A stretch of DNA of 64,000 nucleotides from Sipunculus nudus (Eukaryota; Annelida; Sipuncula; Golfingiida; Sipunculidae): NCBI GenBank assembly GCA_026874595.1, contig CM049321.1, positions 5,820,979-5,884,978 on the forward strand. The letters are read 5' to 3'. The notes beneath the pieces were generated by a model, which made no database searches, was not told the DNA's origin, and worked only from the letters and a program-made list of their open reading frames with translations. Both the position numbers and the translations under genes were made by a program. Below are positions 30,191-63,779 of this stretch, piece after piece (within the stretch, counting starts at the first letter, position 1; every line of letters starts with the position of its first letter).

Positions 30191-31300
30191 ATGGAGCAGA
30201 TACCATTATATGTTAAGGATAAAACACTTTAAGTCATGTATTTATATCATGTCTATTATGTGAATATGTCCCTTAAAATATAATTCGACAAGGTGAAAGA
30301 TATACTTTGTCTTAGTCGCCGTTTGCTGGTTTGTTTGTTGCAACTCTACTCAAATTTTAAGTGAATGAAAGGTTTGATGATGTTTTAAGGATTCAGATAA
30401 CGCCTACGAGACAACCGAATAAACTTATGAGGTAATCTGGATCACCATAACTTTCCTTTGAAGGATTCTATACCAAACAGCAATCGAGATCATATCATTT
30501 AAATGCGTATTCGAAGAAACGTTTTGTGTCACTTTTGACGGGGTGTAAGTAAAAGTATGTAAGTTGACACTGTCGACAGTGACTGCAAATGTCACATGAT
30601 TGAAGACGGCTTTGTTCTGGAATGCACAGTGACATTAGATTCAACCATAGGGTCGGAATAGTGACACACATTTGTCTCTGCTTTATGTTATGCGTTTCCA
30701 GTCCTTATGATTACTGCATATCAAAATATGATGAGGATGTTCAACACATATTATTCCAGATATGCTTTCCCCTTAAATTCATTCATTAAAATTTAATTCA
30801 GGTATTAAATATGTTGAGACTGTTAAACAATGTTAAGTGCTCAAACAAATCTCTAACTCAATTGCTGTTCTTGCTTGAGGTTAATTGTCCTAAACCGTAT
30901 TGCAATTTCCTTTAAAAGTAATCGTAACTGAAATTGACTGCTTTTCGTAAAACACAAAATTAATTGTAATTGAAATCGTGTACTTTTAATAGTGACTGTA
31001 TTTGTAATCATTTACTTGTACATACATAACTGTAGTTGTGCCTAACTGTGCAGTTAACATGTTACAAATCGTTACGGCTGTTAACGCCATAGTTGAGAGT
31101 AAAGAGGACTCAGTATATATTCAATATCAGACGTACATACCAGATACCGATACCAGAAAGCTACTTTTCTTTGAGTGTATGAAAAGCAAGGCTTTCCAGG
31201 TTTTCAGTCTTTTTTGTCCTGGATTTTCTTAAGGAGCGACATGTTTGTAACTAGGTACCCGTTGCCCACAAGGTGGCCTAAAATTGGACATATCGCAATT
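30190..31300. other. Non-coding stretch with AATTGTAATT-type repeat
   Basis: About 30840-31030 is rich in 'aattgtaattg' and 'gtaatcg' runs, like 20700-20830 and 29110-29270. Nothing coding is recognised. Confidence 0.5.
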
Positions 31301-33650: not shown

Positions 33651-33899
33651 TTCAACAGCTCTATGGTAACGGCTTTATCAACCGACCATGCAATTGAACC
33701 GCGTAACATACACAAAAATCTGCAAACGTAAACAGTAATCACCGACAAAGCAAACCGATGGAATCCTTACAATCACACGTGGGTCAGTAAGCGTAAGCGC
33801 CATGTCCTGTCAGTTGATGACAAGCTGTCGATCCTTGCAAGACTTGACACGGGTACTTAGCCAGCTGACCTCACCAGTTAATTTAACGTCGACGGATCT

Positions 33900-35042
33900 A
33901 CGACCAGCAAGATTACTTTATGTTTCATTTTTTTAATAGAACTGCGAACACAAACTTGTTTACTTGTGCATTCAACCGATCCAATGGCTTGTAATTTCAA
34001 TAAAAATACAGTACATGTACAAAAGTTCCCGTAGTTTACCTATCTGCCGATTGATGGCAGCACTTTCGAGGTCATGGCAAGTCATTTCAGTTATCATGGC
34101 AGTGACATGATGCAGGTTCGATACCGATTGTTTCTAGCGCAGGGCTGTTCACCATAATTATATTATTATATTATAATGTTTTCTGTATGATACATTATTT
34201 AAATCGACCGAAAACTAACAATATATTGTCACACATTTACCATGGGCTAGCTTAATCAATTCGAGTCTTTCAGTATCCGGTTATGTAGCGAACATGGTGG
34301 TAATCACGGTGATTACCAGAGCAATTTCATGCAAAATCATTCATTTGAACGATTGTTTAACCGAAGAAACAGCTTGTCCGCGGGGCGTTTGAATAAACGA
34401 CGCTCTATACCCCGCCAGATTGCCTGTCCTTCCTCAAAATGCGTTATTAGCTCTGAAGTCCTTTTTAGAGAAATCACTTCCTGAGACGACTATTTAGACA
34501 TAACACATGTCAGCTTTCTCCACTGTGACATATGCAGACCTGCCTCTGGAATGCTAAACAGGCACTTCTCTCCCCGAACGCTGAAACGGGCCCTCCTTAT
34601 CAATGCTATCTGATGTAACAACTCCGGATGGTCTTCCCGCCCAATCATAACTGCAAATTATGCCGAACGTCAACAACAACGAGACTATTGATAGGTGTGC
34701 CGCCTCTAGTTACAGTGTGTAACAAAATTTTACTTACACAGGTGCGCTTCCTTTGAAATATACAACTAACACTTGTCATCTCCAAAACTGAGGCGCCTAA
34801 GTCTAAATTTAACCGTACAATTAACATCAGACGAGACACGTGTGTTCTTTAACCAACTATCTCACGTTATTATCAAAACATGACACTCCATCAAAATGCA
34901 CAATCAATTGTCAACACAATCATCTGGCCATTGTCCCTACTAGAATAGGTAACACAATACCGAAGTCACAGCACTCTGGGGACAATGAAAAAGGCTCCGT
35001 TTTCTGAATAGAGTAATTTGTTTAGTTTTTTACAGTTAAAAG

Positions 35043-35089
<47 letters not shown>

Positions 35090-37350
35090 TATATATATAT
35101 ATGTGTGTGTGTGTGTGTAAGCGGTAAACCTCGCATCATGAACGGGTCTAATACGGGGAAATGGGTGTCAAGCTTTCTTATATTGATAAGCAAAACATTC
35201 TTCAACACAACTTAGTTCCTGAAACATATCCTTGAGGAAATATTTGATTCGACAAGGATGATTATATAGTTGGCATAAGACCAGCGGCTTCAAATGATAT
35301 GACGTGATAACAGTATAATCAGATGAAATCATTTATACACTAAATACAACAAAGCTTTTGTATATAAGTTGGTGCAGTGCCCTTGACCTTTGATCATTGG
35401 CTCTCAAAATCAACAGTGAAATTCCCCTATGTGTAGGTGGGCCATATGTGATAGATGGTAGGTTTTTTTTAAAGAGTTTAGCTTTTAACAAGTTGCTATA
35501 TGTTTTGTTTGGGTTCAGTGAACTTGACCTCTGACCTAGAGTTCTAAGAATTGATATAATGCGTAATTCTGTAAGAGGCTAGCCATTTTTGGAAAATGGA
35601 AGATTTCGAATGAAAAATAAAAAAAACTTTACCGAAATAAATTCACTGTGATCTGTATTCTGCAACATGTGTGGGAGATTTTAGCAACTTACAAGTCAGA
35701 CGGACTCAAATCGTAGCAGTTATACATATACTCCTTTAATTTAGTTAAGGCACCGGGAGGTCTCAGAAAAATCTTCTAAGATACCGAAAGTCAAATGACA
35801 CATAGACACTTCTGACTTAGCATCTAACGAATTCTTTTTAAATTTTCTAAAAAACCATACCCTACTTACCCAGAATGTTGAGCCAATATTGCAAAATTAT
35901 GAGCTATCAGATATAATTAATCAATTGTTCATGGTTTCTTAACATTTTTTTTTCACCACATAACGGCACCAATAATCAATATATGCATCGTCTGTAGGTC
36001 AAATTCATCGGGGCGAAATTTATCATATTAGGATTAATTAGAATTTTACCAACGCATACAACGTATATCTAGTTCTTTCAGTTTAGTATTTTATAAAATT
36101 TTAACAGACCTGTGATGAAAATTTAACGATCATTTTTTATCCATATAAAATTGTATTAATATATCAGGAAATTTTAAATAGAAAACTCGAACAACACTTC
36201 AGGAATAATCCATTATCCTTATAATAGTATTTATTTATATTTAGTTCTTTAATTTCGTATGAACTGTATATAATAATATATGACATCTGCACTTCAAATA
36301 ACCACATGATTTAATATAAACAGTTAATTTAAATAATTTATTGTGTGTATATACATATATCATATATTCGTATAATAATGACTGTGCATGATAAAGAATC
36401 ACATACTTTGTAGTCTTATTGCATGTAACAAACGCAATTAAATCCCGTGTTGACTCTCCTCCTAACTATCTGCTGTAATAAAATGATCGCATGTAATTTT
36501 GTAGAACAGACCTTCATGAACTTCTACCACCACTTCAAGATCTTACTTATTTATCCCTGCACTACTCCTTTACTTCCTTGCCGGCGTGCAAGTCACAAGA
36601 AAATGCAGCTAATTTGGTCCACAGTCAAAATATATTCTTTGTAGTTGAGCATAAATAAAATAATCAAAAATTAATTAAAACTGCATCGAATGCCATAGCC
36701 CATCGGATGTTGTGAATTAATTTCCTTATTAGTGAATTATCAGCGAAGAAAACAACATATAAGCTTGGTTAACTTTATTTCAGGATGGATCAGTGGATTT
36801 ACTGTGCGGACTTGGATCCAGACTAATCTAAATTTGTCCCTCTCCATTTACTGTCTTGCATGTAATTCTGTAAAGCATTTCCGAAATAAAATTTATTTCT
36901 CATAATGTTGTATTACGTCTTTTGCTCGTTCAGCCTCTATTTATTATAAAAATCTATTGAGAATTTTAACTATGTATGCCGGGAAGGCACCCTTTAACAC
37001 GCATAGGTAACTACAAGGTATATAGTGATGAACCAAAGTTATCTTGACTATTGAGATAAAATTTAAAAGCAACTGTTAATAAATGTTTATGTCGATCTCA
37101 TCCAATGTTCCCAATGTATTACAATGTATTAATGTGGAATGTCCTGATATGAGGTTGAATAAATTTTGAGGCAGGCCTAGAGGGATACATGTGTCTGGGT
37201 AGGTATGAATTCTGCGAGTGCTTTCTACTTCTGCATTTTCATTATAGAACACTCTAGCATTACACCACACTCAAAAACACGACAGATTACACAGAGGCTC
37301 AAACAGATGCATGAAAAAGTCATAAATCCCACTGAAGACAATAAAAAGAC
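33900..37350. other. Intergenic AT-rich stretch
   Basis: No gene is supported. It contains a pogo-like terminal-repeat end (about 34365-34412), an AT/TG microsatellite (35045-35118) and a block resembling parts of B2 (35380-35600, with 'cccttgacctttgat' and 'gacctctgacct'). Confidence 0.55.
35045..35118. repeat. (AT)n(TG)n compound microsatellite
   Basis: AT dinucleotides with two short 'ttta' interruptions, then eight or nine TG units. Confidence 0.95.
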
Positions 37351-37372: not shown

Positions 37373-37378
37373 TTTATT
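37373..37378 (-). promoter_or_regulatory. Polyadenylation signal AATAAA
   Basis: AATAAA on the minus strand lies about 390 nt after the VWD gene stop codon (37771-37769). This implies a 3' UTR of about 0.4 kb ending near 37350-37360. Other AATAAA-like hexamers lie further downstream, so the exact end is uncertain. Confidence 0.5.
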
Positions 37379-37768: not shown

Positions 37769-38280
37769 CTATGCAGGGCATCTGCGAAAAAAAGAGAATA
37801 TGTATTTTAATTATGCAGTTATGCGCGGTCCCAAATTGCCATATCTGAAGTGTGTATTTAGCTTCCTGTTTTATTTGATGATTCACAATTTAATGAAGTT
37901 GAGGTTTTAAAAAATTATAAAAAAAAAACATAAAAAAAATTCTTAAAATTCGTGTCCAAAAAGTATGACATTAATTTGGGTTTGGATGAAACCTGAGATG
38001 ATGTTTCTCAGGTGAGACGTGGGCGATTAATATATACTTACCCTTCTACTTTCCAACTGTTTATGAATGTTTCAAGTCCGTTTGGATCGTTGTTCACGTC
38101 GTCACCCTCCCTAGTTATAAGGTCGTCGTCCCTAAAATACATTAAAAATAAATAATATATAATTTTGGTATCCTCTGGCTGGAACGGACAGGGGGTAAAC
38201 TTTGTGCATCAATATTGACGACTTAGGATATTTTTTTCTTATAGGATTGGATGTAAGTCCTGTTTTACTTCATTATTCCA

Positions 38281-38333
<53 letters not shown>

Positions 38334-41300
38334 TAGTTGCTATATATGAAAATGGGACATAATGGCCATGCAAGAAAAAAACAGATTCCAAGCCCCCCCC
38401 CCCAAAAAAAAAAAATCATTATGTCTATATTTATGTTAGTAATGTTCAGAGCAACGCTGACAGTAACGAGCCCTCAAATCCTAACTCTGACTCGAGTACT
38501 GTCTTTGATTTACTTGTACTCGAGTACTCCAAGACACCTTACATAAATACCGTCCGCACCATATGATGCCAGTTACGTACGGAGGGGATACTTGTAGGGT
38601 TTATAGCTTTATTTCTTCATATATGTCAAGGTAAAACTTGTAGAATGGGGACTTTTTTTAGGTCTCTGACAGTGCAAAACCGTCAAATACAATTATGTTC
38701 TTCTCAATGCCCTTGCTCGTGGCTACGTTTAAGATTGATCTAAAATATGATGAGCTTTCAAAACTGACCTTTGGACAAAAATTAGTCATAGGTGATCGAA
38801 TTGCATATATTAATTTCTAAATTTGCCCATATATTGTAAACACCACTGTTTGATTCGTTTTCCAATTTTCTCTAACGTATTCGCTAATGCTCTCGCCAAG
38901 AAATTCGGTTTGGTTAAGTTTAGCATATAAGATTCCCGAGGTGTTACTACTGGCGGGTTCACAAACTAGTCTAACTAGTAATTGGAAAACTCAACAAAAC
39001 CCTTTTCATAATGTATGCACTTACACGCCATTGCAGTTTCCACACAGGCCAGACACTATTCCGTCGAATTGGTGATCAAAGCAGAGGTCGTAACAATATC
39101 GTCCAGGCGAGCAAATTCTCATAGGTTCTTGCACGGAATCGCAGCAGAGCATGTTCTGGTCATCTTTGTAGCAATCAAACTCTTGATCCTCGTAGGGAGG
39201 CGTCACATCTTGTCCGTTCTATAAATAAAAGAAATACCCATAATCTGGTATTTAGGTATTTGTAGAAATAATTCATTTATAACATCTGGAAATAGACAAT
39301 TCTTTGATATCAACATAAAGCAGACATTGGGGAAGATCAGTACAGTTTAAGCACAATGATAACAGTTTATACTACCATCAATAATCTGGCCTGTATACGC
39401 TTTCTGATACCTTATTTCATCGAGCCACTCTGCCGTCTATTTCAAGAGATACATACTAACACGCGTTTGGGCTGAAATCAGTACTGCAAATCAAATACGG
39501 ATGGGCTTAAAAGGTCCTGTTTGAAAGGTCAGACTTTGATGCCTTATTTTTAAAATGTTAAATATTTTATATTAAATGCTTACAGCTGTGTTTAAGGAAC
39601 GGCGTAAAACAAGTGTTCTATATTCATAGAATAAGCGCAAGAGCACAAGGTAACTGATAGAATAGGTCGACCGTGCCGTTGCTGGTAGAAAAAGGCGACA
39701 ATGTCATAGGTCTTTTATTTGACTGGATAAAGCGAGAATAGTTAGGATGATTTGGACACCAGAAGGATAATTAAAGCATATACCAGAAGTTGGAAAACGT
39801 TAATACAGAGAACCTCAAAATAATGTAGACCACCGGGACCTCGACAAATTGGTCATATATTCTTGATGGAGATCGGATGTATAAATAATACAAGAATTGG
39901 GTTAGCGAAGAATTGTCTTATTTTTACATGGTCGCTTTACTAATGTGGTCTTAAGGCGATTTTTTTCTGCATTAACCCTTATTGTTTATATCGCATTGAT
40001 ATTCAAAGGTAATATCAAGCTCAGCTATTTTTTTCTTTGCCGAATTTTTAACATTCCGTATAGAGTGGGGTTACCTTAGATTAATTAGAATCCTTAGTTC
40101 TGAAGAAATAATATACATTAGTACGACCTCAGATAATCTAACCTGCTGCCTAACTAAGGGTCAGTGATGTAGAGTCCACAATATCCGAGACTCTAGAACA
40201 CACGACTTAATTGCCCAGATCCTGTACCCCAAGTACAAGTCCGTGTGCGAGCCTTTAAAAAGCAGGCTCTACTCCGGAGATAACTGCAAGTCCGGATTCG
40301 AGCCCTTCATCATTGCCCCGGATGTGTGGCCCCCATGAGATGAATGACCTGCAGTTTTATATGGAGTAATAAAGACACTTTGGTACAACACTGATTATTC
40401 TTTATATTTACATTATTATATTTTGCGTCGGGTATTACCCGCGCCATATTGGCCGGTAGGTGCTTAACTGGTTTTCCGTAAGCCGAACTCAGTTGCGTAG
40501 TTTCAGTTAGATGGCAATGCGACTGACCCTTTAGCAAAATAAGGTCTCATTCCTCAGAAAGTATAAACAAATATAGGCAAACGACTTCTTTGCATTGTTT
40601 CCGCGGAATTGCATGACATTACTTTCTATCGTCATTCAACCGAAGTATAAGGTTTGGTTTTCTCATATGATCTCCCAAGGCTCTAGCACATTGTATTATT
40701 TACCGTGATTGTTCCCGGTAAGCCATGACCAGTCGTATACTATGCTAATCCGAATCCGTTGTTTTAATAGTCGCATTCAACCTGATTTTCATGACACTTT
40801 GGGGCGATGTAAGTAGATTTGAACTACTGGTTCGAATAAAGAAAATAAGCGGTATTTTAGGGTACCAGATTATCTGACTATGGCATATGAAAATTAAAAC
40901 CAAAATCCTTCGTGCACTAGAACATTTAGTCAAAAAAGGGATGTTGTGTTATAAAACCGGATAAAGAATACAAATTTCCTTAATTATAACCCACATTGGC
41001 ACATTTATTTATTTATTTATTTTACTGGGGATATCACCAAAGGATCCGAAAGGCGCGTTTGGTTGTGAGTGAAGCAGGACCGCTCAGCCTTGGTGGGTAA
41101 AAAACACCCTTAAGATATCACCTTGATAAACATATTACCGATTTTTACAACGATAGAGAAATCCAATAGAAAAAAATATATTGTGAACCAGGTCCTCCAA
41201 ATAGAAATAACGTTCCAATTAAAGTGTCTAAGAGATAACCAATTTACCAATGTATCGACACAACCGATTAACCAACCAATTGCGAAGCAAACAAGTCGAA

Positions 41301-43515
41301 AACTTAATAAACATAAATCTTACCACAGACACGGATGTATGGTTCATTCTATATACGCCTCCGTTTTGCCTGAAGATGATTTTGTCGGTCCAGCTGCGTC
41401 GCAGATTATTGTTCCGTCGCATTGTGATCATACCCATATCTAGCTTTTTATCATCAGTAAGAATCATATCATATGTACATACATCATTGACGTTAAAATT
41501 TAGACCATCCGGTATTGTCGTGTGAGGGTCTCCGCAGACTCTACAACATGGCCAGGCTGTCATACAAAAAAAAAGGTCAGCAATTAACTGTCCAAATATT
41601 CAATTTTCAACATGCATAAGGATAAACATGATTTTAATTTTGTTTTCATTTTTCTGTTTATATTCAATATTCAACATTCTATTGACAGGTCCTAACACTA
41701 ATTTTTACTGAAAACAGTTGTTATCCTTAGGTTTTATTTAAAAAATCAGTAGGGGCAATGCCGACCAAAACTGTGTGTCTGCATAAGACAATTGAAATCA
41801 AAATTCACGAAATTTAAGAATAAGCCAAAAAAAGCAAAGAATTACATTTTTTAAAATAAATTTTAAATACTCAAAACACGGGGAGCAATACCAGAGCATC
41901 AATCGAAACTGGGATTCTTTGAAAAGAGTCAGTTATCTCAGTCGTCTTATAGATCATTTTTAAGGTATGTCCTACAGATAAACTGAAAAGAAATAAAACT
42001 TTAGGTAACATGCCAAGTATTTGCTCCGCTTTTTTACTAGCCAGCATTCAGCATTGCTCTGGGACTATTAACAGAACATCACATTCATAATCAAATAACT
42101 GGCCGATAATACGGCACATTTTGTAAACAATAACTAGTATTTTTTTCACTGCTATTCATCTATTGTACATCATTATTCAAAAGGGATATGTTTTATGAGG
42201 AATTCTGCATGTATGTTTTCCTAAGCGATGAAAAATATGTCAATTTCAATATTACCCCTAACTCTGTTTTAAGCAAGCCCTCACTATGTGCTATACACCC
42301 CTGTTTGTAACTAATGTTAAAGTGTTCGGATCGGCATTCGATAAGAAAATAACAGTGGCATCTGCAAATAAACTACATTTTAAGTTCCAAATCTTACCAC
42401 TGATATAATTTACATATAAAACAAAAATTGTTGTATCAGTCGATCTAAAATTGACCCTTGTAGAATATCTGTGGGTATACGCTGCGGTGAAGATTGTCAT
42501 ACAACCACACGCACTTGTCACCATGTGGCGGGGAGGGGGATGATGATATAAAAAGCACTGCAACACTGTCGTTTTAGCATATCATATCGTTAAACTACTT
42601 TTCCTCCCTATTGTAAAAAAAATATGCAAAATATTTTGGAGGTCATCCAGTGATCTTTATGTCGACCCCCACTCCCTCCAACCTCCCTTCATGACAAGTG
42701 CCTTTGCATTATACCCAATAAACCATAATGGGCGCTATGATGGCGTATTCCATCTGGATTTGGAGATGACCAGTACATCTTCACTCCCAGATGGTGAGAG
42801 CACACCCTTGTAGTAGAGACCTTGGCTTAGGTGTAAGCGCATGAGTCAGCTAGTTCGTGATGTGGATTAACAACCTTGGGGTACGAGCACAGCGCCCTAA
42901 CCATGACACCACTGCGCACTACTCTAGATGCGAATGGAGAATCATTTTCCCCAGGATATAGCCTCTCTGGATGCTCAACCTTTCAAATATATGACTTCAT
43001 ACACTTTTTTTTCTTCTCAACAATTCGCATGAGAACGCCTAATTTAATATATCCTTAACATTTTCATTCCCTGAGATTCCTAGTGTCTATAGTTTAGTGA
43101 TTGACGCGTATGACGTTTGGGCCGGTACACTGGGTGGGTAGGGTTCAAATCTTACAGAAGCCCATGCCAGATTTTCCCCAAGGTCTTAAATTAAATAAGA
43201 AATTACAGAAGAATATTGTTTTCTGGTAACTGGTTTGCCTTTGTCTGAAAATGACGTCACGCCAGCAGAGGACATGAGGTGTAAGATTGTGTTAACAAGG
43301 AAGATGCTGGGGAAGGTAAACCAGTGATGGCTGGTCAGGAGGACACTAGGGGTACTTGTAATATGCTGACACTAGTTAGCCATAGCCCCAGCCAAAAAGT
43401 AACATAAAGTACTCACGTTTAGGGGGTTCTACTTCGTCGCACCTGCAATGGAATGCGCGATATAATGGATGGATTAGATGGATAGTGAATAAAAAGTAAT
43501 AGGTAATACAAACGC

Positions 43516-43570
<55 letters not shown>

Positions 43571-45624
43571 TTATGTGAAACTCCTTCTAAAAAATTCATA
43601 CCTTAATCGAACTGTTAGGGACATTCCTTATTCACAACAAAAAAATTGATATCCTGCTTTCACAATATTTGAGAAATCTAATAATTAAAACAAATCAGGA
43701 AAATCAGACTGTACATTACAACATTTCAGCCCCACCTAAGGCACTCAAGATCCTTGGTCACAAGCAAAACCAGCAGCTAATGCCTCAAAAAGGAAGGTAG
43801 GCGTTCATCCCCGTGCATTTCGATGTGTTTGTTCACAATATAACTCACGCAATTAAGAATAAAATATCATGTAAATTACAAAGCAATTGGAGAATCGATC
43901 AGACTTAGTGTTGACCCAGCGCGTGATCCGGATTTAGGAATATCATCAATAACTATGCACAAATATACAGTCACTTTGGAATATGGACCGAATAAGTGAA
44001 TGTATAAACGGTTTAGGAACCCCCCCCCCCCATCTATGGCGGATATTTAATTCCTAAGAAATAAGATTTCTTGTTAGAATATGTCGGTAAAATTTTCAAA
44101 ATTGGTTGTCTGTATGAAATCAGTAGAACATATTTTTTAAATGAAATTTTATAAAGACAAGTTCACTAATAGAGGAAGGGAATATATGAGTAAGTGAAGT
44201 AGACATATGATACCTTAATGTAGACTAGCTGGTCTTCTTTAAGGTATCATATGTCAACTTCACTTACTCATATATACAGACTAGCACGGAAATTAAAACC
44301 TTATATTATAAAGGGATTATATGTAATACTATTTTGTATTTTGTTCCGGCGATCTCTACACTGCAACAATGTGGAGCCAATTGGAAATATAGACTATATA
44401 TTATATATCGGCAGACTTATTCCAAAAAGTTAGCTTCTATATTAATGCAACAATGTATTATATAAAAAATAATAATAAATAAAAATCAACCCACAAACAT
44501 AAATTGCAAAAAAAGGTGCTGTGTACACATAGGGCATCGACTTCTTGATACCTCTACAGGATACCTCTCCCCTCAGCACACAATCTATAGCCCGTTACAT
44601 TCATATTTTTTTTTTTATTTCAATTTTACTGGAAACTATGATAGTGTAGGGTAAAGGTTTAAATGGCTTAATTTTCATAAAAAAATAAATACCTACATTA
44701 CATCTTATCTAACTGAAGTTTTTTTTTTTAAATTATGATCAGTCAGTCTACATTAAACAAGAATTCAGTCCCATATATGGACGGTAAGGACATTGGTCAT
44801 AGCAAAACCAGCTTGAGTTGACAGCTGCTGATTGGATGATGTCATTTAAAACTCTAAGAAATATAACCTACCAAAACAAAGATGGCTACTCATGCTGGGA
44901 CACACCATATCATATACCAACTCATTGTGAAGAGACTAATTGTTTTAAACATTAACAGGGTGTTTATTGTAAAATTCTTATTATTTACACTAGGTTGTCA
45001 CTTCCAAATGTAGTATTCTAGGAGATTATTAATAATTATAACTTTTTAGAAAATTGTCTTAAAAAGACAGGTGGCAATACGTTGGAGAAACAGAGAATAA
45101 TCAAAATATCTACTAGTTGCTTCTAACCGTTGGGTAATACCTATGAATGGGACGGTCTCCCCGGTTCCAAAGGAAATATATTACGATAATCAAGGTAACC
45201 TCCACAATTTAATGGGCTGTTTGTTTTGTGTTGTCCTAACTCTCCACAAAATTCTTGAAAATCGATTCTTACGTTTTGCAAAAAGACAAACATACCAAAG
45301 ATCAAAGGAAGAGAGGCTGAAGCACAATTAATTTTTAGGCAAGGAATACCTTTTTAATATTAAATAAAATCATTATTTGACGTAGGAGTTTTCAAAACAG
45401 AAAATATACTACATTGGAAAGCTGTTGATGAAGTGGTTGGTATCATGAATATATCTAAAATAAAAATAACAAAGTGATGGTTAGACGGAAGACGCACTTT
45501 AACTTTGCAAAACTATCATTGACTAATGTGAATGGAGACCCTGAGGTGGAACGAGCTGAAGTTTGTTTTGGGGCAAGTAATATATGGTAATATATAACAA
45601 TGAGCAATCCAGCTCTGCCAATAT

Positions 45625-45714
<90 letters not shown>

Positions 45715-48700
45715 CATTGAGCAGTTACCATTACGCAATGACTAAAAATAAGTATCAAGATACTTAATTCACCATATAACCTATATAACGACATATTGCA
45801 TTTGTCCCAGTGGTCTTCCATGTTCATAAAAATACAACCTACATTATTTAAAAAATTACCGCAGTTAAATTCAAAATATAATTGATAAGTGTCAGCGAAT
45901 CAGATGTCATTCAACTGCCTTCTAACAATCGTTTTCCCCGTATACGCCTGTATGTAGTGAGCGGGGAGACAGTTTATGAATGTCGCTTACCATCATTCTA
46001 CTCGGTATCTTACTCACAGGAATACGACTCTATTTTCTGGAGCTTGAGCGTATTGAAGACCCTTCTCCATAGTGCACTTAGACCTTTAAATGCACTAGTT
46101 ATACATGTGCTATATATAGCCTACCTGAATTAATACAGTGAAACAGTCACAATAAGACCACCCGTCGCACAGTCGGTGTTATTAGAAAAGTTAGTTTTTA
46201 CCAATCTTAATGCCTACGGTTCTCTCAAGGGTGGTCTTTCAGACAAGTGCCATCGTACATCGAGCTGTGCGTATATGAAGGTCTGCGTGTGTGGAAGAAT
46301 GAATGATGATGTCTTATAAAATATTGATTTTATGAACATACCCATCCACGACATTCCAGCTTTCGCCAAATATTTTGTACGTATCGAAGTTTCTTTCCTC
46401 CAGGACCGTGCCGTCGCTAGTGACCAGATCATCAGTTTTACTACAATGAAAACTTATATCTTGCATCTCATGAAGCTCTTATTCCACACACAGTTTTCAT
46501 ATTTTTATTTATATATTGATATAATTTTATTTACTTTATCATAGCGACCGAATGCACTTGAGAATGGTGATCTTCATGCCTGCATACCAAACATATGCAT
46601 TTTTTCTATTTTTCTCTGGTTAAATTTGTCAATTTCAGATAATTTCCATATAATTATCTCCTTCATGTATTACTGTTGATTGACCACAATGATTCAATTT
46701 AAATTAGATGTTTAAATCAGCACAATGTACTCTAGTTGATAGGCATGGGAAAAGTCTAGACAAAGATTAAATGATGCAAATCAAAATTAATGGGCAAATA
46801 GGAACACAGAGACAATGTCGCATACATCAGGGAGTTGGTAATTGTAACTGGCATTGTAATGTGCCTATATGTAATTTAATCTCTCAAGAAACATGATTGA
46901 TACGAGAGCTTCCGTATTGGCTAAAACTAAGCCTGATATAATGATAAGTGAGAATAATTGTTATATAATGTGCCTCCGCATTATCGGGACAACGCCCGTC
47001 CAAAAAATGCACAGGTCCTGCCTGATGGCTATAGTAAAATATACCAACGGGGCCGGTTTAAAACTCACTCTCCGTTATTGTTTCCACATAAACCATTCAT
47101 CGTGCTCGGATCTTGTCTCCACTGGTCTCCGACACAGACCTTCAGATTATAAGCCCCATGCCAAAAGATTTCCACTTCCTCTGGGATAATCGTAAACTTT
47201 ATGTTTGCTCCTATACTTTCTATGCGAATGGTGCCATCATCTTGGGTAGGAAAGCCCTGGATGGGGGCAACCGTGCCGTCGGGCTGTAATGTGAATTAGA
47301 GTTAAATATTATATAATATTTACCAATCATTTATCTAAACAAATATTTATCCACACATTTGTTGGATTATTGAGTTTTCCTAAACATCTTAACAATTCTA
47401 AACACATAAACATTTCAATAATTTCTCCAACATTACCTACGAATGGTTTAGGAAAGTTCTCATCCATCCATGGTGTATGTATTTTGTGCACATAGGTATA
47501 CGTATGACTATACGTCGGTTTCATTTATAGTATATTTATACTAAAGAACCCTATTCCAGTATCTGAAGTCTGTTAACTAAAGAAAATCCTAGACACTGTC
47601 ATAGAAATAGGACGGGAAAACCCCGATCAAATCGCACATAGCCTCCTTGTTTTTTCTTTTGTTCACCTGTTTTAAACGTGTGGTAAGCCAAAATAAACGG
47701 AACGCATTCAACAAGGTTATGATGAGCCAGAATTGTGCAAATAGTGTTTTACAACTAAGGAAATTCAACATTCATGCAGCAAACCATCTAAGATACATAT
47801 ATTTTGTTTAGAACATAGTTTTGTATATTAACGTTTTTTTTACGCTCTTACATAGGTTACAGCAGCATTATAAAAACATTTCTTAATAGGAAAACCATAA
47901 TTTATTAAATTGTATGCAGAATAAGCAAGATATTAAATAAAATCTATAGAAAGGTTTGATGAAGAACTTGCTATAAGAATTTACCGTATTTCTGTGCTAT
48001 CCCCTTCCCATTTTGGGCACATGTTTAAAGATACAATTTATATAGAAAATTTTAAGGCAACTTAAACAAAAACAAAAAAATGAGGAATTTTTGTTCCTTT
48101 TGTATTATTCTTTTGAATATATTTGCATAATTAATCAACATTATGGGGAAAGGGGCTCACGTGTGGCCGGAATTTATAATTATATATCTTCAATATTCGA
48201 GTAACTTTAAAGTGGTAGTTTCTCGGTGTTATGACGTAGCTGAGTGTAGTGTTGCAGTGACTTAAGTCACCAGTATAAAAAGTTATTTTAATTTTTTATA
48301 CTATCCAGGGTCGTCAAAATATGGGGTATGGGGGCGGGGGGGGGGGGTTATTCCCCTTTTTTATTAATTTATACTGATATGATAATACTTATATTTTCTA
48401 AGAACTTTATACGTAAATATAATATATGATTAGTTATATATATTTGAAATGTATGATACAGACAAGAATATATTTGAAATTTGTCAGATGCTATATTTAC
48501 AGGCCTGTGTGTGTATGTCTGCGGGTGCCCTATCCCACCACCACCCAAGGAAGACAAATTGACTCAACTGATGATAATTAATGGAGCAGATCAGATGCAG
48601 AGCTGTTTATAAATATCCTTATAGTATTAGAACGTAATAAACTGTGGAAAACTTGATAATCTAATTGCTGGGTTTAAAAATAATGAAGTACAAAGGTATA

Positions 48701-51700
48701 AGTGGGAAGACGAAGATTAAATGTGGAATGTTATAGTTGGCCAGGAGGGGGTTGCCCATGGATTCGCCAATAAGAACGTATAAAACGTATGAACTTGAAA
48801 TGGCATGTCCGTGTGCCACGGTAGTTTTCTAGGAAATCTTTGTATTAAATAAAAATCTTACTGACAGTACACACTTTATTGCAGATGATTATGTGCCGTT
48901 TACAAAATGTCTGCCTTTAATTAACAGGATTCTCCTACCTTTGGATATTTCAAGGATCATTCTCAAATCAAAAGTTTTCAGAATGTTATTTATTAATTCA
49001 TACAATAAATTATATTTTGTGAGGAATTAACTTTATCATGAAATCGAGTTAATCAAACCTGGGCTATTTTTAAATTCCTAAAAGTTTACCTCAGAAAATA
49101 AAGTCAACCACATAATGTTAACTGAGTCACAATATTTTGGACCCATAACTCTCTCAGAAGATTCTCGAATATATTGCATTGCCAGTGTTTGAAATCGTGG
49201 ATGGTGAAGTATAATGAAACATCATGAGTACACACCCATGGTGGATGGCAGAGGTGAGTTTGGCAAAAACACGAGGTGAACATTACACATACATGATCGT
49301 TTGATTTATATATGTTTAGAGAGATTCTAGAAAATGGGGACGCACTGGAACCCGTGGTAGAAGAAGGGTCTAGATTTAAGAATGAAATTACCTATTGCTT
49401 TCTCATATAATTAGACAGGAACATATAGAATTAAACAAAAATCTTAAAAATATTTTATGTCAAATAATTAATTGTGGAAAGTTTATTTTTTGGAATGTCT
49501 ATCTATTGACTAGGTTCAGAAAAGTAAGTTAATAGTTAACCCAAATTTCCATAGATGGCGCTGGCAATTGACGGGCTCCTGACTTCAACAACATAAAATT
49601 TGATCCTAAAGGATTGTTAAATGCACATTTTGTAAGAGAAACAATTTATAAAACTCAAAAGTAAAGAAATATCCAAATTATCTCTTAATATTTACCCAAG
49701 GTCGCTGATAAAAACTATATATGATATAAATGAAGTTTTTTTCATTCATTCAACACTGATGAAGTTTTCTTTCCGCCAGTTGGTGTCCAGTCAAATTTGG
49801 CGATTATTCCCTTCAATTTAAATATTCTCACACAATCTCACACTGAAACTCACGAAGGAGCAAAAACCTTAAGCTACATAAGAAAAAAACAGCATGCATA
49901 TTTTGCAACTTTATCTGTCTTCTGAGTCTTTTGGGCAACTGACATGGTCTTGGTCAAGGGTTAGCAGCCTCACTTTTACAATTATTTTTTTTAGAATATG
50001 TATGATACTCAATAACTTATCAACAAATTTCAAATGGAGTTGTTTCAATATGTAAGCAGTGAGCTTGGTCTTTATCAGTTTGGTTGATCTGTTGAAAAAA
50101 AAAAAAAACTGTTTTTCTAATATATTGATTTTACTGAATTAAAGTAATGTTTAACCAGGCATGGTTATAATTTTATTGTAGTTTTCTCCAATGCAGCTTT
50201 GGCATGGATATGGTTTCATTCTAGTGAATTAGGCCTATCTCATTCCTCCTTTTATAAAGATTATAGTTGGCACGACCATCGGTGTTTTTTTTTGTTGTAC
50301 AAGAGATTGTACTGATGAATATTTTTAGTCTAACAATCATAAATCAAATATGTATTTGAAAGTATATTGATAAGCTAGTAAATTCAATTAATAAGCAAAT
50401 TTATTTCGCTCAAATTTCTTACAGTTATCATTCAGAAAAGTGTCAAGTTTCCCAATGAGGCATGACAAGAAGATTCCATTACACTAAGAATTCAGAACTA
50501 TAGAACTCACAACATTACTCCAAACTATTGCAAAGTCTGTTTACATATTGTATTAGTTTTCCTAAATATAATTAAAGCTGTTGCTTTTATTTCTTCTTAA
50601 AGATTTAATACACTCTTTAAGGAGATGTATGGAAACTTTGAGATTTAACAATATTTATGGCATTTTCAAGGATATAAAGATTTTACATAGTTTAACTGTA
50701 AATAGGTATTTCACAGCCATTTATGGTACAAAACATTTTATATTTAATCAACATGGAGTTGTATACATATGTTGTAAAATATCAATTATGTTTGCCTATA
50801 TTTAGCTTGAAACTGTTTAATATTTGGAGAACATTTAAAAAGAATAGTTTGAGTACATTTTAAATTTAAACGTGCTATGAAATCATATTCGAAGAATCAG
50901 CAGCTAAAAGTATTAGGTTTTCTCTGGTTTTTAATATAACGGCGAGAGATGTTCAATTGCTGTTAAAAGTATACTTGAATATTCAATAGCAATTGGATAT
51001 ATGATATCTGAAATTCATTAAACTATTTTAAAAGTTACGTGAAATCTGCAATTTTCAGATATCCGACATTTACAAGACACCAAAAGGAATAAATAATTAG
51101 GGTTTTAGATTATGTACATGTCATGGGGCCACAGACAAAGAGTATGAAAAATACTTGATGTATGCATTCGGCTTGGAATGTTCCCTGGGAGTCAACGACT
51201 GAGCAATATTGGTTATCGGGAAACGGTTATTGCTTGTGAGTCCTTGTAAATGCGGTCAAGTTCAAAAATGGATATCTGGACAATGCCTGTGACCTACGAC
51301 TTACAGTGTGCCTCAATTTCAGCTATATGGAATCTGCCCTTTTGAAGATCTTGCCGAACAAAAAAATGACAGAAGAAAGAAATAAACTATTACCCAATAT
51401 AAGCCCCTCGTCCCAAGGAGGGAGGGGGGGGGGGGGGCTCCATAAAAGAAAAAAAAACTGACACAATTGTTACATATGCTAATGTGATCTGAAATAAATT
51501 TCCGACATACCAGCTGGACTTCCGTGTAGTTCAGATAGTACGTCTTGCCGTCATAATGAATGATTGTACTATTTGCGAAGCTGACTTTAGGGTTATCTTT
51601 ATGGAATTCAGGATCCACCCAGATTTGAAATACTCCGTGTATGTCAGATGCAAAATTGTACACACAGTTGCTTCTGAAATGTACACTCGGAGGATTGTCA

Positions 51701-53870
51701 AATTGTTTGTAGTTCCCGTTACCGCTCAGCTTGCAACATATATCTGTGAAAATAACGAGATTTACCTGCAGCACCAGTGCACCAATCTGGGAATAAACAG
51801 GTATAAACAACAGGTCTTCATTGTTACACAAGAAAAACTTTTGTTAAACTCTCAAAATATCTCCGCAGAAACATCCACTCAGTCGTTGGACTGAATCCAT
51901 GTTTCATTTGGATCCGCGCAACATATAATTGCATCTGTTGCTGAATTATCATTAATAAATTATATATATTATATATAAATATTATGATTATAATAAATAA
52001 ATGCTTTCATTTATTGCAATTTAATTCTACATTTTCTCAATATTTGTCGTTGATATGTACAGAAAAGTAGATATGTCAGGTTTGAAACTCAATGAAACAA
52101 ATATATGATGTACAGATTGACAGTATTAAAAAAAATCTTACCTCTTGCCCCGTGAACTTCTGCTAAAACTGCAAGATAATGTTAGGATAGTACTATTATT
52201 ATTATATTATATATTACTTTTATATCAACATGACAATATAACATTAATGCAAACATTTTTTTGTCTTTAAATTCATCAGTGTGTTTTTGTTTTATATCTA
52301 GACAGCTTTGAACTGAACTTAAGTTAAAATAGCAAATTGCAGTGAATCGCCGTTTATCCGAACAAAGTCACTGTCCTCGATATATTCAAATAAACGACGC
52401 TTAAATATATATGCTTATCGAAATACAATTCTTGGTTCTGTTGTTGGTTTACTCAACGGCTTCCTTCCTTCTTTCGCTTGTTATGTAAATACTTGGATTA
52501 AAATCCTGATACGAAACATTTCTGTCACGGATTGTGCGTTAGACAACTAGGTCGTGCGAGATGACGGCGGTTACCATAGATATGTGATGTATACTTAAAT
52601 CTATACATATATAACTGTAGTTTGTGTTCCTGTTTTTGTAGCCTTATTATAGAGTTTCTTATCTGTACAACGAGACATTTAATGTCACTTATGGCTAGGA
52701 TTTCTGTATATTGCAAATAAAACATTTCAGACAACATATTCAACATATTTATTTCCGCTGAAACACCTAAAGCTGCGACACTCTCATAAGCGAATTTGAA
52801 AAGAAAACACCAGCAGTATTGAAAAATTTCAAATGCTCAACTTTGGTGGCATCATTCCTTTTGAAGCAAACATCCCAGAAACACCTGATTTTATATCCTT
52901 CTTAAGTTCCTACCTATGCATCTGCTATTGCCTCTGCAAACTGCTAATTATGCTGGCTTAGCTGACCTCATTGAATATGCATTTGTAAACCTGTGTAATT
53001 TAAACTCAAATAACAAGAAATAGTAGCCAGAGAAAAAAAAAGTTTAATTGGAATGGGGAAAAAGTGTGAATTTTGTTATCAATTACTCATTCGTTTATGA
53101 TGCATGATTCCTTATATCCAGATTGCTAGTTATCTCATTACATGTTCAGCAAAAATAGCTTTCCGAGGATATATTTTTATGCATGAACTGACTCAGATGA
53201 AAGTGTAAACTTGTGTATTAATTGTATATTAATGTGACCAGTATTTCTGCCGATTAATAACAGTAAGCTTGTTGGTACCTTATCACTCTTAGGACACCTG
53301 CATGTCCAGATGATATTAATTGTCTTATGATATACTTAATATTTTTTTATCGTTTGAATTTACATATCTGTAAATATTTTGTTTTATTATTCAGCTCATC
53401 AATATTTTATTGTTTGTATGTGCCTACGGGCACGGGCCACGCTTATAACAAAGCGCTCCTCTGGTGCGATTGCACTAGAATAAATAACGATCAATACCAT
53501 AATAAATACATAAATGAGCCAGCAGTATGCTAAGATCGCTGATCTCAATCCAGGCAGCTTTTTCCCCCCGTATGGCATTGTCAGATATGCAGCATTTTTT
53601 TATAAGTTCAGCGGTCGAAAGCAACACACTCAGGATACATGTGCTGCCACCTGTTGTGACATCAGTAAAAAGTAAGATGATTATGTTGGGGCATGAGCTT
53701 CCTTGTTTTCTCATCTCACCCAAAACTTCAGCATATAATACATAAATATTTTATATCTAAATTCTAGATCCAGACGGCGATCCGGACCATTCCGGACATA
53801 ACATGGCTGATCTAATTAACTACTCACATGACAGCATGGAAACGAAGAGAAAGATCCCCTTATACATCAT
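37769..53870 (-). CDS. Secreted protein with two tandem von Willebrand factor type D domains (10 coding exons, 390 aa)
   Basis: Coding exons in transcript order: 53870-53828, 52168-52142, 51743-51511, 47283-47069, 46440-46342, 43442-43417, 41556-41324, 39218-39025, 38131-38042, 37781-37769. Every border is AG/GT, phases match at all nine joins, and the total is 1173 nt, closing at TAG. Residues 1-22 are a signal peptide (MMYKGIFLFVSMLSF, then a likely cut near VHGA). VWD1 spans about 26-207 with GLCGNNNGD at 165-173, DDLVTSDGT and GESWNV. VWD2 spans about 218-388 with CGDPH at 222-226, VNGQDVTPPY, GLCGNCNG at 349-356 and SWKV. Potential N-glycosylation sites are NST and NYT in VWD1 and NHT in VWD2. 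VWD1 lacks the usual GDPH (GNGNY stands there). VWD domains occur in extracellular mucin-like, matrix and coagulation-type proteins, so an extracellular structural or binding role is likely; the specific function is unknown. The start is the first of two adjacent ATGs, with A at -3. The model is deduced from sequence only; an extra or alternative exon cannot be excluded. Confidence 0.87.
38284..38330. repeat. (TA)n microsatellite in intron 8 of the VWD gene
   Basis: Uninterrupted TA run of about 47 bp. Confidence 0.95.
42700..42920 (-). repeat. tRNA-derived SINE in intron 6 of the VWD gene
   Basis: Minus strand: 'gcgcagtggtgtcatggtta' (42919-42900) followed by 'agggcgctgtgctcgtac' and 'aaggttgttaatcc', laid out like the A and B boxes of a tRNA head. 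The body runs to about 42700. Confidence 0.55.
43084..43390 (+). repeat. tRNA-derived SINE in intron 6 of the VWD gene
   Basis: A-box-like 'tatagtttagtgattgacgc' and B-box-like 'agggttcaaatctta' about 50 nt apart. The body ends just before the microexon at 43417. Confidence 0.5.
43516..43566. repeat. (TA)n microsatellite
   Basis: TA run of about 50 bp with one TG interruption, in intron 5 close to the 26-nt exon. Confidence 0.93.
44182..44275. repeat. Near-perfect 36-bp inverted repeat (hairpin) in intron 5
   Basis: Arms 44182-44217 and 44240-44275 pair at 35 of 36 positions, with a 22-nt spacer. 'agactagc' also occurs in the spacer and just after the second arm. The size (about 94 nt) would allow a small-RNA hairpin or a tiny palindromic transposon. 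Confidence 0.85.
45621..45711. repeat. (AT)n microsatellite in intron 5
   Basis: About 90 bp of AT dinucleotides with two 'aaat' interruptions. Confidence 0.95.
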
Positions 53871-54899
53871 AGTGGCGTCTGTACCTGCAGCAGATAATAA
53901 CATGCGTCGATATTTAGATTAAAATTTGATGTTAACATCACTAATAAGCTTTAATATACACTAACAACCATGATAAGTTTAATGATTAAATATCTGAATA
54001 TTGCATTTTCCTGTTGGTGTATCCATAATTTCTACATGCAGCCTGCAATATCCATGTCTAGCTTGTATGTACAATGGCAGTACCGGAGCTTTAGAGAAAT
54101 ATGAAGAAATTAACCTGAGAGGCTTCGTCAAGGGTTGGAGTGGATTTAGTTGCAAAGTACGTGCATCTGCAAAGTTTATAATATTAACGCTTGTTGGCCC
54201 AACTCAATCCTTAAATCACAGTGGAATAACGTTCACCAACCAACCCATAATGTGAGCTTTGACAGAATTAACAGATAAAGGATACCGCGGTGTAAAATCC
54301 ATGTGTTTCAGTATGTTTCTTCCAATAGGGTAGGTATAGGAACTACTAGCGACTCAGGCGATCTATATTTATTGTGTATATTTGGGGAAGAATAGATCAA
54401 CATATCAGTTTGTATATGAATCAATGTGTATATATTAAGGGCAAATGACCATTTAAATAAAAATTGTATTTTTGTTGCCAATTTGGACATGCAGATATAT
54501 TAACTGAATCAATATTTAAATCTGACACTCTTTGTATTTACAACAGAAGTGATATTTCTTTCAGTGTTCATTGTTTATTTATTAAACATTCAACATTAAC
54601 TGCAGATAACTGATTCAGCTTAATGAAATAAAAGTTAATACTTAAAGAAAATATGCAGAAATTTGACCTAATAAAATCTTTTGCAAAAAAGAGAGGGAAC
54701 TCCAGGTGCCAATATCAAGTGAGCCCGGTGGTCTTCCGAACAGTGGAGGGATAAAGCATAATAATGACAGCGGTTTCTGTACATATTGCAATTTTTTTTC
54801 AATATTTATTATTTCCACTAGCATATGTGTTCTGTTTTTGATGAGAATGATTTGATAATGGTAGCTGATTCGTAACATATCGTTAAGTTTGATATAATA

Positions 54900-56048
54900 C
54901 TTTTGAGCGCCGCTTTTACAAATAACGAATTTCCGAAAATTCGTTTTTCCGAAATCTCAACTTTTTCCCGAAAATTAATTCGTATCTACGAACTATTTTG
55001 CAAGTATTTAAGTACTTCAAATCATTTTTTTTAATTACGAGTCACAGGAGCCTGAAGTCAGATGTTTAAGCCGTGTGATGACCTTAATTAATAAGTTCTG
55101 GACGGATGTTTCCGCCGGGCAAAGGTGTGAAAACTACATCTAGTCCCGCCATGCTAGGCTCCGAATACTCCATGAAAGCTACTGAGCTACTACTATCTAA
55201 GAGCACGCATCTGTACTCAAGCAAGCATAGTTCGTTAGCTTGGGTGTCAGGCCTAATAAATGAGCAGTTAACTCGCATGGAGACTGGCGAGGTATCATTC
55301 ATACATTGCTGTGATGGAAAAGTTTTATGTGCGAGGCAAAAGCAAACAGGCCTGACCATACACATGAGCAGTTCATTCCCAAGAGCAACTGTGTCAGCTA
55401 CTTAAACTGACTGTTATTCAGTATATTCATCATTTCACTTTTACTGTAAAGAATACCATTATTCAGACACGATCGCCTTTCTGTCACTTCCAAAAATATA
55501 TGAGGTCAAAGAAGAGAAACGACGACGTTATGCTTTGAAGACAAGGTGACAATCCTTGAGTGGAAAGACCGTGGTGACAAGTCTGCCATCATTCAGATGT
55601 AAAAAAATAGAGAGAACATTTTTTTAAAAAAGAAGTCAAGAAGTTATATAAGCGACGTTGGCTAGGGTATTCAATAAGCTTAAACCTACGTTACATCTGA
55701 AATTTATAAAACATCCATTTAAATAAGTAGGTTCTACGTTCTTTCAAAAACTTTCGCTCTGCCTGTGGGCAGTTAAATCAACCACCTCAAATGCCATGTC
55801 ATATGCTCTTTCCATAAAACAGGCTAGACTGATCTTTACCATACAATCTCTGCAATAAATCAAATATTTGTACATGTCAATTACGTAGGTCGAAAAGAAA
55901 CACGGTGTTCCCTCAGTAAAATGGCGTTCAATTAATCACTAACTGTCATACAAACTTGCCGCTTGTTCCCTGACCGATTTTCCGAAAATTCGTTTTTCTT
56001 AAAGTAAAGCTTGTCCCTCGACGCTTTTGGAAAAACGGCGCTCTACTG
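54900..56048. mobile_element. 1149-bp element with pogo-like inverted ends, flanked by TA
   Basis: The left end begins CTTTTGAGCGCCG (54900) and the right end, reversed, begins CAGTAGAGCGCCG (56048); each is bordered by TA. Inside, 'tttccgaaaattcgtttttc' occurs at 54930-54949 and nearly so at 55979-55998. TA target sites and ends of this type are known from Tc1/mariner-superfamily pogo/Tigger elements. The interior has a 94-codon open frame on the minus strand (55365-55084) and a 99-codon frame on plus (55106-55402), with no recognisable transposase. Probably non-autonomous. It sits in the inferred first intron of the VWD gene. Confidence 0.7.
55084..55402 (-). other. Open frames on both strands inside the pogo-like element
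   Basis: The minus frame (55365-55084) is Cys-containing at its start (MCMVRPVCFCLAHKTF) and ends PLPGGNIRPELIN then TAA. The plus frame spans 55106-55402. Base composition is more balanced than around it. No family is recognised; it could be a captured exon or chance. Confidence 0.3.
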
Positions 56049-56049
56049 T

Positions 56050-57577
56050 AAATACTATTTTATACAATATAAAACATCACAACTACCTGCCGCCCCTCTT
56101 TCATCTCTGTGGACTAACTAACTATCCCCGTTATCCCACAATTATAGGTAGCCCTATCAAGAGAAGTTATGGACATGATTTTTCCACGAGCTGGCCAAGC
56201 CAAAAAAGGCGATTCATTGCTTCACAGGTTTTCACCAATAGTAAATAGTGTCTTTCAATCTTCCACACATGTAATGTACACACCTAGGGTAACACAGATT
56301 CTATTTGTAAACACTGGCACGTGTTCCGTGTTTAACATCAAATTATTGATAAACAAGCTCATGTATCCTTCACAGAAGCGTGACAGGAAGTGTCCTCATC
56401 ATGAATTATAAAGAGTTATTAATACATACGTGTCAGAAATCACATTATCAAGCAATTGTACAGTTGGCTAATCAGTTGACAAATCTCATAGTTTAAAATT
56501 GCCAATGGATTGTCATCAGGAATTTTGAATAAACGTTGATCTCTTTGTTTAAACGGCTGTGATCGCTGTTTTTAAGCTTTCATATAACACTCACCGAAAT
56601 ACAAGTAACCAGGAATGAACAACGAACCTGCGCAGGAACCCAAAGGAAATCTCTCTTTGTGTTACACAGAAAATATATGTAACCGTCAAATGGAGCTATT
56701 CACATATCTGGTATGTTTTATAGACAAGACAGACCAGTGCTTTCTCTTTAAATTTATTATGACATCTGCCAATGTTTCAAACCGTCAGCTTAGTCCTATA
56801 CATCAGTACAAATTTAATGAGGTAGCACTGTGATCAGTCGCGACAATATAAACATAACACACACGCCACTTGGCTAGAAAACTGCAAAATTTTACAGATA
56901 AAGAGTAGTGTTTCTTCGATGTTCATGTTTTATATTCCCTTCTCTTGCTTTCAGATGTCGCGCATATACATGATTAAACCACGGTTTGATAATAGGTCAG
57001 TTATAAAAAAGGGCTTTCCCTAATACCAGCGGATGGCCGATGATACGGAATTCATAGAACTAGTCCAAAGTCTACCATTTATTAAGGCTATGCTCTCCCC
57101 GCAGCGGAAATACTGCAGTTGTCCCAGACATCCTTTTGTGTAACCACTGCTTTGAATAGCTAGGTTAACTTGGCTCGAACAGCAGGGTGCGCACAGCATA
57201 CTGAATTGTAATCGGACCACACAACGCGTTGTACTGCGTTGTGCATTCTGCCCAATTTTAATACATGCGAAAGCCGCTCTCGTTTGTCTGTAAAACCAAT
57301 TCTGGCATACTTCGAAATCAGACCGGTGAAAGCTGATGTTCAATGTAATCAAACAATCCAGACCTGCTAGATTTTGACTAGAATCACAATGAAATATCAC
57401 GTACGCTTTCAATGCTCTCATTACAATGCTAGGCTCTCTATTCGCCCTTGTGTTCGAGTCCAGGACACCAATGTATCAGGAACGTAATTAATGCAGGAAC
57501 GTTTCCTAAGAGGTAATTTTTAGCAAAGGTTAATCCCGTTTTTAAGTAAAATAACATGAATTTTTTGTCCCTCTTAC
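56050..57577. other. First-intron sequence, nothing recognised
   Basis: Upstream of the VWD start codon and downstream of the inferred first exon. A 133-codon minus frame (57421-57020) has no recognisable motif and no supporting splice context. 'gaataaacgttgat' near 56528 is a weak echo of the pogo-like ends. Confidence 0.35.
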
Positions 57578-57612
57578 CTTTTCGGTTCTGGCGACTTCTT
57601 TCTTCCGTGCTC
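57578..57612 (-). other. Probable non-coding first exon of the VWD gene
   Basis: On the minus strand a TATA box at 57632-57640 is followed about 25-30 nt later by sequence ending in a consensus donor (CCGAAAAG|GTAAGAG, exon end at 57578). A matching acceptor (ctgctgcag) lies just upstream of the VWD gene start codon, giving a second 5' UTR piece of about 14 nt at 53884-53871. The joined leader has no upstream ATG. The 5' end is estimated from the TATA position. The intron would be about 3.7 kb. That this promoter serves this gene is inference from orientation and splice-site match. Confidence 0.55.
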
Positions 57613-57631
57613 AGGCTCAGTTCTGGAGGGG

Positions 57632-57680
57632 CTTTATATACCTTCCTTATAGGCCCGCGTGGCACATGTGCGCATGCGCA
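57632..57680 (-). promoter_or_regulatory. Core promoter: TATA box plus NRF1-type site
   Basis: TATATAAAG reads on the minus strand at 57640-57632. Upstream at 57669-57680 is TGCGCATGCGCA, a perfect palindrome matching the animal NRF1 consensus. The patch is CG-rich in an AT-rich region and sits just before a consensus donor site. The nearest gene in this orientation is the two-VWD gene. Confidence 0.6.
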
Positions 57681-57689
57681 ACAAATAGG

Positions 57690-63300: not shown

Positions 63301-63319
63301 GTGCTCGAACTGATCACGC

Positions 63320-63722: not shown

Positions 63723-63725
<3 letters not shown>

Positions 63726-63777: not shown

Positions 63778-63779
<2 letters not shown>

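Follow-up and report, generated by a model that had tools for sequence, protein, structure and literature searches.

What kind of gene encodes little more than a signal peptide and two VWD domains, and where could such a gene come from? The question is posed by a gene on the minus strand of a 64,000-nucleotide stretch of the Sipunculus nudus genome (GCA_026874595.1, contig CM049321.1, here C16; the whole stretch, C16:5820979-5884978, is called the window), which an earlier note had proposed from the letters of the DNA. We find that the gene belongs to a large cluster of copies on C16 and bears the mark of purifying selection, and that its two domains resemble the first and last modules of a longer gene on the same contig, from which it may have been shortened before it was amplified.

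The gene and its product

The proposed ten-exon model, which runs from ATG to TAG over 1173 nt and 390 codons with all joins in phase, was rebuilt exactly on the minus strand, and all nine introns carry GT-AG borders (Table 1). Both VWD domains follow one exon plan, with exons of 233/215/99/26 nt for VWD1 and 233/194/90/13 nt for VWD2 and exon starts in phases 1, 0, 2, and 2. This mirrored plan and the open frames of two diverged copies, A and B, described below, are support beyond chance, and as far as sequence can tell, the model is confirmed. The case illustrates that a splice model read off raw sequence can be verified through paralogues without RNA data. Between exons 2 and 3, a block at about window positions 51897-51965 resembles a shortened exon-3 start (AIICCADPNETW...), and similar DNA occurs in copies D and G. 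We rejected this block as an additional exon, since an in-phase stop precedes any usable donor (judged by eye).

Table 1. Exons and flanking elements of the two-VWD gene, in window positions
Feature	Position	Strand	Length (nt)	Copies or supporting evidence
Exon 1, ATG and most of signal peptide (MMYKGIFLFVSMLS)	53828..53870	minus	43	Recurs in A, B, D, E, F
Exon 2, signal peptide end (FLAEVHGAR)	52142..52168	minus	27	
Exon 3, first half of VWD1 (ICCKLSGNGNYKQFDN...)	51511..51743	minus	233	Pfam; genome search with product
Exon 4, second half of VWD1, ends NGLCGNNNG	47069..47283	minus	215	Pfam; genome search with product
Exon 5, VWD1 end (DDLVTSDG...FGESWNV)	46342..46440	minus	99	Genome search with product; rebuilt copies
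Exon 6, last VWD1 cysteine and proline-rich linker (GCDEVEPPK)	43417..43442	minus	26	Copies; random-sequence test
Exon 7, first half of VWD2 (CCRVCGDPH...)	41324..41556	minus	233	Pfam; genome search with product
Exon 8, second half of VWD2, cysteine-rich, ends SGLCGNCNG	39025..39218	minus	194	Pfam; genome search with product
Exon 9, VWD2 end (DDLITREG...FINSWKVE)	38042..38131	minus	90	Genome search with product; rebuilt copies
Exon 10, GCPA and stop TAG, supplies last VWD2 cysteine	37769..37781	minus	13	Copies; random-sequence test
AATAAA, candidate poly(A) signal	37373..37378	minus		3' stretch shared with copies B and D; comparison with A stops short
Possible start of 5' untranslated region (UTR) after candidate acceptor (CTGCAG in W, A, D; CTGAAG in B)	53871..53884	minus		

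Profile searches bear out the view that the product is VWD only. PF00094 matches the whole product with an E-value of 7.2e-24 and its first and second halves with 1.3e-12 and 9.3e-12, all above the curated cut-off (48.7 bits for VWD1 and 46.0 for VWD2 against 22.9). No other Pfam family rises above its cut-off in the 390 aa, an NCBIfam scan gave one match only, far under cut-off, and none of six peptide patterns taken from the product matched the viral contigs. The hydrophobic N terminus reads by eye as a signal peptide, as had been supposed. The product is acidic (pI 4.45), of about 42 kDa, and cysteine-rich, with three N-glycosylation motifs (at 81, 95, and 286) and an odd number of cysteines (19), all of them after the signal peptide; 18 are conserved across six copies, the exception being C354, which is Asp in copy A. 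It terminates two residues past the last VWD cysteine.

The two domains are only 24% identical to each other. When the four core cysteines of a VWD are considered (before GDPH, in N/T-C-x-Y, in GLCG, and after the final W), all four of VWD1 align with VWF, while the first three of VWD2 align with FCGBP and the fourth is present but unaligned. The CGLC motif is incomplete in both domains (NGLCGN and SGLCGN). By whole-chain E-value, the best solved structure is VWF for VWD1 (whole-chain E, 1.8e-12; single stretch, 23.5 bits) and FCGBP for VWD2 (whole-chain E, 1.9e-13), these whole-chain values being sums over the several VWDs of each chain. VWD2 also matches a chain of cypridinid luciferase in its second VWD (24ne_A; whole-chain E, 2.3e-4), and the best single stretch of that match, at 17.8 bits, exceeds the FCGBP stretches among the matches listed (at most 14.9 bits); FCGBP has the better whole-chain value because it contains many VWDs.

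This resemblance raises the possibility that the product is a secreted enzyme of the luciferase kind. Cypridinid luciferase, also secreted, has the same outline, in that a signal peptide precedes two VWD-like halves that are some 20% alike (PMC8859458), and a double-VWD secreted protein is therefore not unprecedented, a point on which the earlier note was not quite right. The match, however, spans only residues 58-161 of VWD2, and a search with VWD1 up to an E-value of 10 does not find luciferase. Furthermore, the enzyme has 553 aa, 34 cysteines, and about 100 residues behind its second VWD whose deletion cut production (PMC8859458, section 13), whereas our product, with 390 aa and 19 cysteines, has no such region. 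Deletion of the second VWD is reported to leave no activity (PMC8859458), and a 302-aa first half made in Escherichia coli is cited in the introduction of the same paper as having 45% activity. N-terminal residues 31-36 of luciferase are described as needed for activity; in our product, only a few residues lie between the signal peptide and the first VWD cysteine. Given the short match and the differences in length, cysteine number, and C-terminal region, we consider a luciferase-like enzyme very unlikely.

The cluster of copies on C16

A search of the 1.43-Gb assembly (153 contigs) with the product gave 106 exon-level matches, 74 of which lie at C16 5.74-6.39 Mb and make up an array of about 640 kb. 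Counts of places in the genome searches are lower bounds, and exons 1, 2, 6, and 10 are too short for a search with the product; the array holds at least 18 matches to exon 3 (13 full and 5 partial), 13 to exon 4, 8 to exon 5, 14 to exon 7, 14 to exon 8, and 7 to exon 9. A full rebuild, with AG/GT borders required, was tried on seven copies, namely, the window gene (W) and copies A, B, D, E, F, and G. Six of the seven give one ten-exon open frame, of 389 aa (B), 390 aa (W, A, D, and F), or 392 aa (E, with a last exon set at 19 nt, which makes the product end in GCPAQG rather than GCPA). In G, the exon-2 donor is lost and the rebuild fails. A border-free scan had already located the exons of A and B, with 3-nt differences in exon 7 (B), exon 8 (A), and exon 9 (both).

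Copies A and B retain all ten exons in one open frame at a synonymous divergence (dS) of about 0.4 from W. Even the small exons 6 and 10 recur in both, with 17 to 18 of 26 bases matching in exon 6 and 11 of 13 in exon 10; matches as good arose in none of 1000 first-order random sequences for exon 6 of either copy, and in two (A) and one (B) for exon 10. Further copies were read in part. Five exons each were matched in copies H and I and are stop-free (exon matches only), and exon 3, the only exon read there, is open in L006, L008, and L009. In copy C, a conserved cysteine is gone, and exon 7 was not found behind exon 5. At C16:5932758-5953526, rearranged copies appear in the order exon 1, part of exon 3, and exon 7, followed by exons 2 to 5 and exon 8, with one cysteine lost; these copies are apparently decaying.

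The array looks, from its sequence, like the outcome of recent segmental amplification. The segment around W (C16:5848431-5900360) shares nine pieces, each 1.5 kb or longer, with that around D at 94.6 to 98.6% identity, three kinds of copy recur at a spacing of 81 to 85 kb, and D, E, and F are 98.3 to 98.9% alike (six comparisons of 3.2-kb stretches). A point against this is that copies 98 to 99% alike could be uncollapsed haplotypes; A and B are clearly separate genes from W, given their dS of about 0.4. Of the notion of a lineage-specific family, the expansion is supported, while lineage specificity is seen only as recent expansion within one genome.

Other repeats and blocks in the region are noted here for the record. 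About 16 kb past the right end of the window, C16:5901124-5931340 consists of head-to-tail units of about 4.7 kb, 97 to 99% alike, between copies W and C. In the window itself, positions 1-5118 and 5126-16069 are tandem duplicates at 98.3% identity; the unit measures about 10.9 kb, and its first occurrence starts about 5.8 kb before the window. Upstream of the gene, 57589-57838 has blocks with at least 44 of 50 bases matching in both A and B; it is one of several such non-exon blocks and may represent a promoter or an exon of the 5' UTR.

The partner domains that usually accompany VWD were said to be lacking from the product, and they are also lacking from its surroundings. C8 (PF08742) has 53 places genome-wide and TIL (PF01826) at least 62, with none of either in the array. 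C8 exons from the same genome gave no match in 264 kb of the approximately 640-kb array, gene included (best E, 0.064). On C16, TIL occurs only at 16.70, 16.71, and 48.67 Mb, and C8 lies beside related VWD exons at 2.75, 5.59-5.61, 6.56, 18.29, and 27.34 Mb. A genome-wide VWD profile search found 125 places and missed the exons of the gene itself, which the product search recovered. In the window, a tRNA scan and Rfam at gathering scores found nothing. Six-frame Pfam scans (stops as X) of both strands of 54000-64000, 5126-15124, 16000-25998, and 26000-35998 were also empty, but these negatives say little, because the control, the minus strand of 38000-47998 that holds most exons of the gene, was equally silent. 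As a separate matter, a C1q domain was present in 141 of 150 scored candidates genome-wide, many of them clustered. Bivalves have hundreds of C1q genes, and this count taken by itself would suggest such an animal; a search for molluscan haemocyanin gave no match, as did its control.

Selection on the exons and on each domain

Exons are better conserved than their surroundings. Between W and D, identity is 99.15% in exons (1163/1173), 97.35% in introns (14405/14797), and 96.1% in flanks (12942/13461), and the difference between exons and introns is significant (Fisher p = 2.7e-5). The more distant A and B are 87.1% (1019/1170) and 84.3% (985/1168) identical to W in exons against 78.2 and 76.6% in alignable non-exon DNA. 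For the whole frame, the ratio of nonsynonymous to synonymous divergence (dN/dS, or omega) is 0.11 for W-D, 0.25 for W-E, 0.09 for W-F, 0.21 for W-A, 0.38 for W-B, and 0.40 for A-B. E-F (0.34) and D-F (0) complete the picture, with the caution that values among the nearest copies rest on a handful of changes. By these measures of sequence, the gene is shown to be under purifying selection. Two observations pull the other way. Of the blocks with at least 44 of 50 bases matching, 15 out of 27 for A and 21 out of 30 for B lie outside exons (several directly abut an exon), and omega for D-E is 0.51, a value that rests on only six differences.

It might be argued from the lost donor in G and from the losses in C that the gene is a decaying duplicate without present function. 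W, however, is intact, its omega against A and B is well below 1, and its exons have outlasted its introns in conservation, so that we regard decay of the window gene as extremely improbable.

The constraint is unevenly spread over the two domains. Omega for VWD1 and VWD2 is 0.08 and 0.30 in W-A, 0.18 and 0.52 in W-B, and 0.20 and 0.50 in A-B, i.e., 2.5 to 4 times as high in VWD2, although the three pairs are drawn from three lineages and are not mutually independent. Of 2000 bootstraps, 0.1, 0.4, and 0.85%, respectively, put VWD1 above VWD2. Since dS, too, is greater in VWD2 (0.605 versus 0.286 in A-B; the opposite order appears in 8.4, 5.1, and 0.35% of bootstraps for the three pairs), exchange of 5' halves between copies may add to the contrast. 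A pattern of this kind would suit a secreted recognition protein, acting in immunity, self/non-self discrimination, or gamete recognition, in which VWD2 has diversified between copies while VWD1 stayed constant, and the coexistence of many intact and broken copies is usual for recognition families. On the other hand, omega in VWD2 stays below 1 (0.30 to 0.52), which relaxed constraint explains equally well, and part of the pattern may come from the 5'-half exchange just mentioned. We therefore think a recognition role unlikely.

Possible origin and role

A longer relative offers a clue to the origin of the gene. On one strand at C16 18.276-18.297 Mb, VWDa (of the GNGNYKQFD type) is followed by VWDb, C8, VWDc, C8, and a PT-rich stretch running into VWDd. 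Modules a, b, and c and both C8 exceed their Pfam cut-offs, while the two pieces of d score 15.0 and 21.7 bits against 22.9. The same order recurs in a locus at 2.75 Mb on C16, which shows b, C8, C8, and d. Compared with the minimal gene, the long locus thus has two extra VWD, two C8, and the PT-rich stretch. In a tree of 19 first-half exons, VWD1 groups with the a modules (support, 100/100) and VWD2 with the d modules (100/98); identity over these exons is 57% between VWD1 and module a and 42% between VWD2 and module d. A recent duplication within the gene, which the mirrored exon plan might suggest as the source of VWD1 and VWD2, was rejected on this ground, as the tree pairs each with a different module of the long gene. 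A clear phase-1 start is found in five of eight VWD exons read and a phase-1 donor in the two C8 exons examined, so that the frame can survive removal of b-C8-c-C8. At the position of the PT stretch of the long gene, W, A, and B have proline-rich linkers (EPPKPW, TPPPEQW, and IPPPLPW). To judge from these sequences, the minimal gene looks like the first and last modules of the longer gene.

Several points speak against this derivation. The tree has 79 columns of half-domains, with 4 of 16 inner branches starred and a long-branch warning, and in three of the eight VWD exons the choice of acceptor is ambiguous. Loss rather than gain is inferred by parsimony, and the long gene is a putative single unit. 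The first cysteine of CGLC is missing from the b-type exons read at 2.76 and 6.56 Mb as well, which places this loss before the minimal gene arose.

How does such a gene compare with known systems? It shares the VWD domain with VWF, gel-forming mucins, and FCGBP but differs from them in that no C8, TIL, or full CGLC was found and two lone VWDs take the place of D assemblies. Its nearest parallels are cypridinid luciferase, considered above, and stickleback spiggin; the gene lacks one defining feature of each and is filed with neither. Spiggin is the nearest parallel in both history and form. As described in PMC4989455, it is a MUC19-derived tandem family with short members that have two VWD, a truncated GLCG, and no dimerisation motif, CGLCG having a role in mucin polymerisation. 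Like spiggin, the present family has short tandem members that are related to a longer VWD-C8 gene and carry a truncated GLCG. According to the same source, spiggin C1/C2 have two C8, one TIL, and 616 to 639 aa. The product here is shorter, at 390 aa, the searches for C8 and TIL found neither in the array, and the nearest longer gene is a VWD-C8 locus on C16 of the same animal. In the open-licence papers searched, as far as their text was available, we found no description of a tandem family of two VWDs only.

These considerations suggest a scenario to which we give about an even chance, i.e., a compact secreted two-VWD unit, produced by shortening of a long gene and amplified, is used in matrix, mucus, or glue, with VWD1 constant and VWD2 varying. 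To judge from its relatives, a VWDa-VWDb-C8-VWDc-C8-PT-VWDd gene would have lost its middle, and the minimal gene would then have been multiplied repeatedly and recently on its chromosome. Lacking C8, TIL, the PT-rich stretch, and a full CGLC, the product should not form the long disulphide polymers of gel-forming mucins. Calcium binding is usual for VWD domains, and the product would instead be a compact soluble unit, stabilised by disulphides and probably by calcium. We propose that the many gene copies lead to abundant secretion, and that the product may serve as a component of matrix, mucus, or glue. VWD1 would be a constant scaffold or docking part, and VWD2 would vary from copy to copy and engage a range of partners.

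On the sequence evidence, our preferred reading is a component of mucus, matrix, or glue whose dose has been raised by gene amplification, with the reservation that none of the results distinguishes a mucus or glue role from other secreted roles. An egg-coat or shell-matrix protein would be another such role, suggested by analogy with the VWDs that other invertebrates are reported to have in skeletal proteins and in egg-related ones (PMC7853314, PMC4890752, PMC11673550). Where these papers give an architecture, it differs from ours, however (vitellogenin-like, or ZP with VWD), and we hold this to be improbable. Similarly doubtful, in our estimation, is a version in which the end modules of a VWD-C8 mosaic were joined and tandem-multiplied, with VWD1 kept constant as a scaffold and VWD2 diversifying as a recognition face. 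If that were true, this would be a constant/variable family, in which one animal secretes a repertoire of VWD2 variants.

In summary, a mosaic of the gel-forming-mucin type has apparently been reduced to two bare VWDs and then amplified, which would place a further case beside spiggin. Given that intact, variable, and broken copies lie side by side in one array, dose amplification can here be tested against diversification of a single domain.

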